The position numbers and the translations under genes are program-made. A DNA stretch of 44,667 nucleotides. It comes from Glaciozyma antarctica PI12 (Eukaryota; Basidiomycota; Microbotryomycetes; Kriegeriales; Camptobasidiaceae). The notes beneath the pieces are model-generated. The model saw only the letters and a list, made by a program, of their open reading frames with translations, had not been told where the DNA came from and ran no database searches. Positions 523-26,212 of this stretch are shown here, one piece after another. The first letter of the stretch is position 1. The number at the start of each line of letters is the position of its first letter. The stretch lies in the NCBI GenBank assembly GCA_002917775.1, contig KZ627149.1, positions 1-44,667 of the forward strand, written 5' to 3'.

Positions 523-3487
523 CTAGTGGTCGGTCAACTGCAAGTTGCCTGCGCACGCTCGTCAGCTCACACCCAGCACGGAAGAAGGAAGGAAGGACGC
601 ACCCGACACGAGCTTGTTCTCGAGGATCGTTCCGTCGGGCAGCTCAATCTTGGCTCCCTCGTTGGCGACGATGATGACCGTTCCTCGGAGGATCACGTTC
701 CTTCCAAACGACACGTCTCCAGCGACGGTAAGGTGGTCGAGCTCGAGGATCTCGGGGATTGTCCGGAATCGCTTCTGGAATTGCGAGACCTGCGACGCGA
801 GAGAATCAGCTCCGTCCCTCAGTAGAACAGTGTACGCGCGCACCTTCTTAAAGTGATCACCGAGCTTGACGACGGGGGTGGAGAGGAACATGCGCTCGGG
901 GTTCATAACGAGACGACCGTGTTCGAGCATGTAGAGGTCGGAAGTGATGAGGAGAAGGTCCGAGCAACTCTTGACGGGGAGGAAACGAGATCGGGGTACG
1001 TTGATGCCTCGAGCGTTGCGGAAGTGCTTGATGGCGGCTCCGACGGCGGTCTCGAGCTGGATGACGGCCTCGCCGTTGTCCGAGACCTTGTTGTTGACGA
1101 TAATCTCGAGATCCATGCCGTCGTTGTCCATGACGCGCTTGACGGCGCGGAGGTCGACCCAGAGGTTGCTGAGCGCGCGAAAAGAGCCGTTAGCCACACC
1201 TCAGAGCAAAGAAGGCGACACGACGCACTTGGTGTTGAAGATCTTGAACTTGCGAACCGACTTGAAGTCCTCGACGTGATCGGCGGGGACCTGAGCGATC
1301 TCGAGCAGGCGAATCTGGCCGTCGTAGTTGATGAGCGTTCCTCCCTTGACATCGGCCTTGGTCTTGTCGGTGACCTCCATGAGGAACTGCGTGTGCGCGG
1401 CGTCAGCTCCCTCCTTTCAAAACGAGACGAGCGAACGCACCTCCGACTGGCTCTCGTGCATGTGCTCGAGGATGTTGAGATCGACGACAGCACCAAGGTT
1501 GTCGACGTTGGATACGAAGAGGTACTCCTTGCCCATCGCGAGGAGCTTGTCGACGAGACCCGAGTTGGTGATGGCGTCAAAAAGATCTCCGTGTCCAGGA
1601 GGGTACCTGCGTTTGCGCTCGTCAGCTCCGTCTCTTGGCTACAAACGACGAACGAACGCACCATGCGGCCTTGTCCTCGAATGCCGAGCGAGGGGTAGGG
1701 AGGAGAGACTCCTTGTTAACGCGAGGGTAGCGAGACTGGTTGAACGTGTTGAGCTCAATGTTGTGGTTGGCGTACTTCTTGATAACGCGAGCGGTGTCCT
1801 CGTCCGTGTTGAACGAGTTCATGAGGATGAAGGGAACGTTGACTTTGTAGTGCGAGTTGAGGTGCTGCGAAGGTCCTCGTTAGCACCCTCGCGCCTCCTT
1901 CGACGAACTGCCGAAACGCACCTCAATCTGGCGAACGGAAAGGTCGAGGAAAGTCATGCCCTCGCGAACCTCGATAACACTCTTGGGTCCAACGCATCCC
2001 ATCGTCGTTCCGAGTCCTCCGTTAAGCTTGAGGACGGCGAGCTTGTTGAGGAGGTCGGGGTTGGTGCACTCGGGGAGGTCAGCGTAAGGAACGACTTGAT
2101 CAACGGTAGGAGGCTGAATCTTCTCCCAGTCGCTGTGACCAAGGCGTCAGCTTCGTCGGTCGTTCGCGCGCGAAGGTAGAAACGCACATCTTCTGACCCT
2201 TGGCGCGCTCGCTAAGATACCGGTTGAAGAGGATGAAGAAGCCCTGCATCTCTGCCTCGAATGCCTTCTCCCGCTCGTTAGCTAGCCGTGCAGCTCCGGA
2301 GAGTGAATGAGCGCACCTTCTTGTATTCGCCCTCCTCGGCGGGGATACCTTGGATCATGCGGTTGAGCTCGTTGCGCATCGCCTTGGCCGCGACACCGGT
2401 GGTGGCAGATTTGAAGTCCTGAGGACGGGATAAGTTAGTGGGAGCGCTGGTGGGAGCGATAGTTGGGGGAAGAGTTCAAAGAGAGATGAGCACCAAGCGC
2501 ACATACGGCGGGAGCTAGCCTGGAGGATTCCAGAATAGCCACCGCGGCTAGCACGGCTGCAGTCTCTCTTTGGGAGCACGGCGAGGGGACGAGTGCGCGC
2601 CGCTCCTCCTCTACCTCGAGCGCAGTCCACTCGCAAGGCGCTGCGCTCTTTCGAGCGACCGACCTCCTCGAGCAACGCCTCAGCAAGGTCTGGTGCTGCA
2701 CGGCGATTACGTCCAGCGTACGCCTAATGCGCTTCATGCCGCAGAACGACTGAGACGCCAGACGTTCCGAACAGGCGTTCCCGCACAGCTGCCGCGAGAG
2801 CCCAACTCAGTGAACGCCAGAGGGATCTCCCTTGTCGCGTGCCTGGGGCATCAGGCTCGTGTGCACAGCTGGATCGGAAAACTGGAACAAGAGCATTCCT
2901 GCCGCAAAGGCAGTTCGCGCTCCCGAGTCGTCTACCCACGCTGGCACTCTCCCGTCCTTCGCGGGCACGACTCCGCTAGTGCTGCCGTAGCTCGCTAGAG
3001 TGAGACCCAATCCTACATGCTGCCGTGTAGAATCGTAGCAGCTGTAGCGAGACGGAGAGGCCCGCAGGAGGAGCAGGCCCTCCTCGAGGACGATGGCTCG
3101 TCATCGGCAGACCCCGCGAGAGGAAGCTGAGCTGAGGACGACCAGTTCCTCGAGCGGCGGCATGACAAGAAGGACGCACCAGCACACACGCCTATCGATT
3201 GCTCGACAGTCGTCGCACCGGAGTAGGACACCAGCGCTGCCCGCTCTGAAGACCCCACGTCGTCCAACCCCACCGTCTTGGTCTCCACTTCCAGCCTCTC
3301 CTACGCCCCCAGCGCCTCCTCCAGCACCGTGTACACTCCCACTTAGCTCTCACCCCTCCAGCCCCGCCCCACGAGCGCCCGTCCAACCGGACTCGGGACT
3401 CACCATGGCACTGTGACCTCGAACCCTCTTGCCCGCCGATTGCGCAACGACGGGAACGCCGTCCGGACTGAGATTGTTGGCTGACAT
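523..3487 (-). CDS. UGP1: UTP-glucose-1-phosphate uridylyltransferase (UDP-glucose pyrophosphorylase)
   Basis: Makes UDP-glucose from UTP and glucose-1-phosphate in the cytosol, the precursor of cell-wall glucan, glycogen, trehalose and glycoprotein sugars. The protein of about 500 residues is read from at least eight exons. Exon 1 (3487-3404) is 28 codons ending GHSAM. After a 985-nt intron, exon 2 starts [18 protein letters not shown]. Then come the nucleotide-binding loop [17 protein letters not shown] (about 2060-1990), [10 protein letters not shown] and FNQSRYPR (about 1820-1730), [11 protein letters not shown] (about 1600), the NNLWVDL and [14 protein letters not shown] block (about 1160-1090) and the C-terminal left-handed beta-helix ([12 protein letters not shown]). 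A last tiny exon (about 552-523) gives the family ending SGNLQLTDH. The other introns are about 50 nt, with GTGCGT donors. All expected catalytic motifs are present. The start is the ATG at 3487; an in-frame upstream ATG-containing extension cannot be excluded. Confidence 0.95.
2419..3403 (-). other. Long first coding intron of UGP1 (985 nt)
   Basis: It lies between the exon ending GHSAM and the exon starting DFKSATTG. Donor GTGAGTC at 3403, branch point CACTAAC and acceptor CCTCAG at 2419. In the sense strand the first 200 nt are G-rich and contain CCGGTTGG near the donor. No conserved reading frame or recognisable RNA gene was seen inside. It is some twenty times longer than the other UGP1 introns. 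Confidence 0.8.

Positions 3488-26212: not shown

Follow-up and report, generated by a model that had tools for sequence, protein, structure and literature searches.

The prevailing view is that the splicing machinery of fungi takes most introns as a single short unit, and in vertebrates G-triplets near 5' splice sites act as intronic splicing enhancers. How a genome with mainly short introns might deal with longer ones is touched on by several reports. Longer first introns are a general property of eukaryotic genes (PMC2518113), splice-site information increases with intron length, fungi included (PMC1713244), and Rhodotorula graminis has an extended, C-rich donor consensus (PMC4585186). In Cryptococcus, splicing is poorest for introns of more than 500 nucleotides (nt) (PMC11913375), a difficulty to which stronger signals in long introns would be an answer. 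Here, we describe long introns of the basidiomycete Glaciozyma antarctica PI12, found in the first 44,667 nt of contig KZ627149.1 (assembly GCA_002917775.1). This stretch, hereafter the window, is C4:1-44667 in our contig numbering and has telomere repeats at its start. It holds nine predicted giant introns that start with GTGAG, and together with similar introns elsewhere in the genome they form a class that carries a G-rich leader behind the donor, at the place where short introns carry a C/T-rich block.

Long introns with GTGAG donors

The genome measures 19.98 Mb in 18 contigs; a GC content near 60%, numerous introns of about 55 nt and the genes present point to a red yeast of the Rhodotorula kind. 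It was sampled as the window plus 20 stretches of 10 kb, eight more and one more. The starts of C1, C12, C15 and C17 were excluded (those of C12, C15 and C17 are wholly N, as is C16 1-4889), and the usable sample amounted to 287,040 bases in 20 regions. Genes were predicted with a purpose-written Viterbi gene finder in C, trained on 277,040 bases, the last 10 kb being predicted only. It scores coding sequence with a 3-periodic model and splice sites with weight matrices for donor and acceptor; branch point and intron length have one term each, the latter with a tail that reaches 2600 nt. The donor matrix was trained mainly on short introns and favours GTGCG over GTGAG (C 0.64 and A 0.31 at position +4); it is blind past +6, so that positions +7 and later constitute a free test. 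In the 115 genes predicted with a coding sequence of 300 nt or more, it placed 687 introns. Their lengths fall into two groups in a bimodal distribution: 626 of the 687 are shorter than 100 nt (the "short introns" of all comparisons below, unless stated otherwise), 10 measure 100-149 nt, 15 measure 150-299 nt and 36 measure at least 300 nt. Most short introns are 46-70 nt long, about 55 nt being typical. Their typical donor according to the initial annotation, GTGCGT, is indeed the commonest, but it is found in only 179 of the 591 introns of 40-69 nt.

The giant introns read from the window by the initial annotation were largely recovered by the finder, which placed seven of the nine at the same lengths (492 instead of 491 nt in the GILT-family gene, and 348 and 344 nt for two introns of about 345 nt in the surface-protein gene), while those of the nucleoporin-like gene (1607 nt) and the ChaC leader (484 nt) were read by hand only. 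All nine start with GTGAG, as had been claimed. Across the sample, this donor is found in 25 of the 51 introns of at least 150 nt, without curation, compared with 127 of the 626 short introns (p=1.4e-5). The bias of giant introns towards the 5' end is also real: 19 of these 25 are intron 1 (11) or intron 2 (8) of their gene, compared with 154 of 549 short introns, and the median length of coding sequence upstream is 188 nt for the long GTGAG introns and 685 nt for short introns. The description of one giant intron per gene holds as well, since 23 of the 24 genes with a GTGAG intron of at least 150 nt have one such intron.

Protein continuity provides a separate view of these introns. Seven finder introns of at least 300 nt are bridged by a Pfam or PDB alignment, and all seven start with GTGAG, which has a probability of 1.4e-5 at the short-intron rate given above. 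Three of them lie in the window, namely those of the GILT-family gene (junction at residue 74, within the Pfam GILT match 37-144), the mL57-like gene (1252 nt; junction at residue 104, within the Pfam match 78-210 and a PDB alignment) and PHO88 (1382 nt; the Pho88 alignment runs across the junction). The other four are found in Skn7 (811 nt, C3), MVD (632 nt) and a PHD/JmjC gene (376 nt), both on C13, and IMP4 (1398 nt, C11), where the bridging rests on the PDB alignment and the Pfam match begins later. An eighth bridged intron, in LST8 (473 nt, C5), emerged from re-reading by hand: the finder had used a GTGTGT donor, and with the donor GTGAGTCGCTGAGCGGTTGG, which lies 33 nt further downstream, the conserved protein is complete save for at most one residue. 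Elsewhere in the window, the UGP1 protein alignment begins five residues upstream of the intron 1 junction, and the junction of BSD-domain gene intron 2 falls outside the Pfam BSD match. Among scanned introns of at least 300 nt, 7 of 15 with GTGAG are bridged compared with 0 of 11 with other donors (p=0.01; totals of 20 and 16), and among those of at least 150 nt the counts are 9 of 18 and 2 of 17 (p=0.03; totals of 25, with 7 unscanned, and 26, with 9 unscanned). Judged from sequence and alignments, the predicted giant introns are very probably real.

At least four of the long introns with other donors were rejected as fused neighbour genes, with different families on each side of the junction: ATP12/methyltransferase, kynureninase/F-box, GH88/carnitine acyltransferase and cactin/RAI16-like. 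The cactin match extends 7 residues beyond the junction of the last fusion and was not counted as bridging.

Composition of the long introns

A curated set of 23 introns was assembled from 20 of the 25 finder GTGAG introns plus those of the nucleoporin-like gene, ChaC and LST8 read by hand. Five finder introns were dropped by eye as doubtful (C10 410001 sites 1577 and 14704, C5 8786, C11 4827 and C2 9337); C16 5892 was kept in the 23 but left out of the YAG count and of the chromosome-end count made without doubtful models. As the set was picked for GTGAG donors, it is used only for other features. All 23 introns end in CAG, and 22 contain CTGAC, CTAAC, CTAAT or CTGAT, signals that the finder itself uses; with a GT donor, an AG acceptor and a branch-point motif shortly upstream, the curated introns have the sequence signals of U2-type GT-AG spliceosomal introns.

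The donor side of these introns is rich in G. The G share is 43-51% at nt 13-120 and declines to 32% by nt 180-260, which gives a leader of about 120-180 nt after the donor, and the C share of the final 70 nt is 40-41%. The initial annotation noted a G-rich stretch behind the donor; in the curated set, G skew is positive over nt 7-120 in 22 of 23 introns, C16 5892 being the sole one to oppose it, and negative in 22 of 23 over the final 70 nt. Whether the donor is closer to the ATG than 190 nt or farther away, the skew is about equal, so it is the donor, not the ATG, to which the leader is anchored. The mean skew is 0.38 in leaders compared with -0.11 and 0.08 in the gene flanks. Over positions +13 to +36, the G fraction is 0.475 in curated long introns and 0.339 in short introns that also start with GTGAG (p=5e-5).

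The splice signals of long and short introns differ as well. Pyrimidines make up 78% of the sequence after the branch point in long introns and 58% in short ones (p=7e-7), but 58% and 73%, respectively, directly after the donor (p=7e-5). From these shares, short introns have a C/T block beside the donor, where long introns have the G-rich leader. In addition, the branch point CTAAC is present in 9 of 23 curated introns compared with 110 of 626 short introns (p=0.02), the long class having mostly CTRAC, and the exon ends in AG ahead of the donor in 12 of 23 compared with 139 of 626 (p=0.002). YAG occurs 1.62 times per 100 nt at nt 20-120 of 21 introns, compared with 2.09 in shuffles (1.5% of which are as low) and 3.07 inside the introns.

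Four GG runs, as for a G-quadruplex, are present in 22 of 23 leaders (19.4 in shuffles), and 6 of 23 have four GGG runs (3.0 in shuffles); since each count was reached by one shuffle or more, no claim is made. Local folding is slightly more stable in the introns (mean z -0.34, 176 windows) than in intergenic DNA (0.11, 250 windows; p=6e-4). No Rfam family was found in the window at gathering scores, nor at E<=0.5 in positions 2000-26100 of the window, the introns of other contigs not having been searched.

The GGTTGG extension

The initial annotation took a GCGGTT/GGTTGG extension of the donor as the distinguishing signal of the giant introns. In the window, the extension is indeed above chance: GTGAGTN{0,12}CGGTTGG occurs three times against 0.02 expected, each time at a giant-intron donor. 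Genome-wide, this pattern occurs 30 times and the reversed pattern 15 times, and for the looser GTGAGTN{0,20}GGTTGG the counts are 180 and 135; split by spacer, they are 92 and 57 for 0-9 nt, and 89 and 78 for 10-20 nt. Moreover, GGTTG lies within nt 7-46 of 8 of the 23 curated introns, compared with a mean of 3.6 in shuffles of the same segments (a fraction of 0.003 of 300 shuffles reaches 8). Four of 101 finder GTGAGT donors have CGGTTG nearby, all four of them long, and LST8 makes a fifth by hand. The extension does not mark the class, however. A census of the nine GTGAGTN{0,20}GGTTGG sites in the sampled DNA gave four long donors by the finder, one long donor by hand (LST8), three short-intron donors and one non-donor, and a fixed extended donor motif was rejected as a general class marker. 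Rare in the genome and no more than moderately in excess of its reversed control, GGTTGG behind the donor is a real yet minor component of the broader G-rich leader.

For the motif itself, an end bias is no more than suggested. Of its 171 sites beyond the window, 37 are found in the outermost 75 kb of a contig (22.2 expected, p=0.0012), a limit set after part of the list had been seen; the counts are 21 within 50 kb (14.9 expected, p=0.07) and 16 within 30 kb (9.1 expected, p=0.02). For the reversed control, 22 of 133 sites fall inside the 75-kb limit (17.3 expected, p=0.14); contrasting motif and control directly yields p=0.17. Overlapping matches (7 of the motif, 2 of the control) were merged by hand.

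Concentration near contig ends

In our small genome sample, long GTGAG introns lie mostly near chromosome ends. Thirteen contig-start blocks of 10 kb were compared with 13 interior blocks (about 117 kb without N), the window being excluded because the finding arose there. Genes with a GTGAG intron of at least 150 nt number 16 of 50 in contig-start blocks and 2 of 46 in interior blocks (p=5e-4); with a threshold of at least 300 nt, they number 11 of 50 and 2 of 46 (p=0.016). When doubtful models are removed on both sides, the counts become 12 of 50 and 0 of 46, and 8 of 50 and 0 of 46, respectively. By blocks, 8 of 13 starts and 2 of 13 interior blocks have a long GTGAG intron, and with the long-intron prior of the finder raised fivefold, 19 such introns are found at ends (window included) and 2 in the interior. 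Median intergenic length is alike at ends and in the interior (361 and 350.5 nt, p=0.63), as is short-intron length (55 and 55 nt, p=0.38), so there is no general swelling of non-coding DNA. As the interior sample is small, the contig ends are starts only, C14 and C18 start without a telomere repeat, the first 4.9 kb of C16 is N and the introns are finder predictions, we treat the end bias as a lead. A limited literature search did not find intron length tied to chromosome position in print.

Telomere-bearing contig ends also place coding sequence close by: that of UGP1, IMP4 and SKN7 lies within 0.5-0.8 kb (window 523, L014 613 and L006 796, respectively), with no gene-poor stretch before it.

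Proposed recognition of the long introns

On balance, we think it somewhat more likely than not that these introns are spliceosomal and that their length is what makes stronger signals necessary, the cell recognising long introns differently from short ones. Ordinary GT-AG introns would have outgrown the range of recognition as one short unit. The AG|GTGAGT-like donor of the long class would then pair longer with U1, and the G/GU-rich leader, poor in false 3' sites, may act as an intronic splicing enhancer by keeping either U1 or a protein that binds G on the true donor. The pyrimidine tract at the 3' end would recruit U2AF, so that the two ends could be recognised separately. A second and compatible reading is possible, in which the leader is also a zone cleared of false 3' sites. 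Of the three ideas put forward in the initial annotation (a splicing enhancer for long introns, an intron-mediated expression signal and a relic of a common inserted element), the enhancer fits best, given the donor-anchored G-rich start, the GGTTG excess and the stronger splice signals.

Several points weigh against this account. The curated set was picked by GTGAG and provides no test of the donor, while the branch point and acceptor are used by the finder itself. When the donor is forbidden, the finder score drops by 3.8 for UGP1, 4.0 for BSD and 2.8 for Skn7, and by 6-8 for PHO88, mL57 and GILT; several long introns are thus less firmly backed than short ones (median drop 9.3, 60 short introns). 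True introns of 150-300 nt are mixed, as domains bridge one of 227 nt with GTACGT in NECAP and one of 159 nt with GTAAGC in RPA3. Among short introns, those less than 400 nt from the ATG have slightly more G than those further along (0.290 and 0.257, p=0.03), although the former value is far below that of the long class. GGG runs are no more frequent than composition predicts (22 against 21.0), which leaves an enhancer made of G-triplets undemonstrated, and decoy combinations of branch point and YAG are not depleted (2 of 21 introns; 1.9 in shuffles). Finally, a model of splice signals leaves the chromosome-end bias unexplained.

The 5' location of the long introns would also suit intron-mediated expression, in which they carry transcription or chromatin elements, the G-skewed leader included, and have strong splice signals since their genes need splicing. 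Promoters containing 5' introns are strong in Rhodotorula (PMC5124236), and the more stable local folding of the introns could reflect functional content. Nevertheless, the leader is tied to the donor and not to the ATG, as expected of a splicing signal, and the intron bodies share no similarity, which makes this explanation rather unlikely in our view. We would put slightly less trust in a purely negative account, by which selection does no more than purge the donor side of branch points, YAG and pyrimidine tracts, lest a long intron be mis-spliced to a false 3' site close by, and G-richness is the remainder. YAG is indeed below composition at nt 20-120, and with most short introns at 46-70 nt, false 3' sites at such a distance would compete; but GGTTG is above composition, and complete decoys are as frequent as in shuffles. 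The opposite skews of the two intron ends also raise the prospect of structural shortening, with the G-rich 5' end pairing with the C-rich 3' end and joining donor and branch point. Compared with local shuffles, whole introns do fold somewhat better (mean z -0.95, p=0.01), but in predicted folds the path from donor to acceptor is no shorter (mean rank 0.47 against whole-intron and 0.53 against local shuffles). End-to-end pairing is thus unsupported by minimum-free-energy folds, and we regard it as highly improbable.

Two further explanations start from the position of the genes. Neutral lengthening of non-coding DNA near telomeres would account for the concentration of long-GTGAG-intron genes at contig starts, but it is improbable given that intergenic and short-intron lengths are alike at ends and in the interior. 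It is likewise a long shot that telomere-adjacent housekeeping genes keep long G-skewed 5' introns against telomeric silencing, intron length marking telomere distance; the introns might hold genes open via splicing-coupled transcription or R-loops over the G-rich leader. Lastly, the long introns could be relics of one inserted, introner-like element, to which we assign almost no credence. In an all-against-all comparison of 28 introns, the single match joined the first 33 nt of the PHO88 and BSD introns (88% of 34 columns), with no further mutual similarity at E 1e-3. Against other sampled DNA, the sole match of the 28 at E 1e-4 was a local repeat that one doubtful intron contains, and the PHO88 and UGP1 bodies, the two searched genome-wide, are single copy. 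An introner family is disfavoured, as a family of homologous bodies did not appear among the 28 introns compared and the two searched genome-wide, and so is the inserted-element idea of the initial annotation. A short segment, 86-94% alike, recurs in a 20-kb stretch (L028 ~108-155 and 3851-3899, L029 ~9308-9338) and also lies inside a doubtful 316-nt intron.

Introns and genes of the window

Positions of the nine giant introns in the window, with some of the donors and the source of each call
Intron	Position	Strand	Length (nt)	Donor	Source
UGP1 intron 1	2419..3403	-	985	GTGAGTCCCGAGTCCGGTTGG (3403-3383)	gene finder, donor pattern
GILT-family gene intron 1	7828..8319	+	492		gene finder
BSD-domain gene intron 2	10553..11228	-	676	GTGAGTGCGCGCGGTTGG	gene finder
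mL57-like gene intron 2	13442..14693	+	1252		gene finder
Nucleoporin-like gene, inferred intron	21913..23519	-	1607	GTGAGTCTTCGTGCGGTT	hand-read, without finder call
PHO88 intron	24617..25998	-	1382	GTGAGTCGCGCGGTTGGTTGG	gene finder
Surface-protein gene intron 2	31893..32240	+	348		gene finder
Surface-protein gene intron 3	32404..32747	+	344	GTGAGC	gene finder
ChaC leader (5' untranslated region) intron	40428..40911	-	484	GTGAGTCCGCGCGGTGAGG	hand-read

In the ChaC gene, the finder instead picked a 347-nt GTGCGT intron with the same acceptor, and the Pfam ChaC match starts past the junction of that intron. The surface-protein gene had no match in the Pfam search. If its 1607-nt intron is right, the nucleoporin-like gene (18533-23710, minus strand) would encode an FG-rich protein that opens with a membrane-helix-like exon; this exon, read by eye in one frame and unconfirmed, recalls membrane-anchored nucleoporins. 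The UGP1 intron also contains, at ~2477-2572 (minus strand), a hairpin some 96 nt long that is closed by a stem of 10 bp and matches no Rfam family; it lies in a 163-nt stretch that folds well below its shuffles (z -3.9, 0/200) and was chosen as the extreme of 176 windows. Directly upstream of the UGP1 start, the telomere-like words GGTTAAGGGTAGGG and TAGGGTTAAGGGTTAA are found at 3496-3509 and 3652-3667. In the wider sample, the first 10 kb of C1 (L004 1-10000) is AT-rich, with 37% GC compared with 60% for the genome, and may be organellar or centromeric sequence.

Comparison with known systems

Of the described systems, vertebrate G-triplet enhancers share with these introns a G-rich RNA just inside the donor; here, GGTTG and not GGG is above composition, the introns concerned are long ones, and an enhancer function is putative. 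Introners would share the common start of two introns, but differ in that no family of similar bodies was found here. The intronic promoters and intron-mediated enhancement of Rhodotorula (PMC5124236) have in common with our introns a 5' location in red-yeast genes, an effect of ours on expression being hypothetical. With the donors of R. graminis, the likeness is to the short introns, which likewise have pyrimidines, mainly C, right after the donor, whereas the long introns reverse this with G for C. The rule of longer first introns also places a long intron near the 5' end; in G. antarctica, however, the long introns are set apart as a class by length and by the composition of their ends, and 11 of 25 are intron 1 while 8 of 25 are intron 2. 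There is also a relation to the rule that longer introns have stronger sites, since donor, branch point and pyrimidine tract are all nearer to consensus. What differs is the added donor-anchored, G-rich leader of 120-180 nt, which is opposite to the C/T-rich side of short introns. That long introns carry stronger signals is known, whereas the inverted donor-side composition and the chromosome-end bias are for specialists to test. Two separable intron classes would make it possible to test, in a simple organism, what a splicing machinery adapted to 55-nt introns does with introns of 1.5 kb, and if the end bias holds genome-wide, intron length would be tied to chromosome position in a compact genome.

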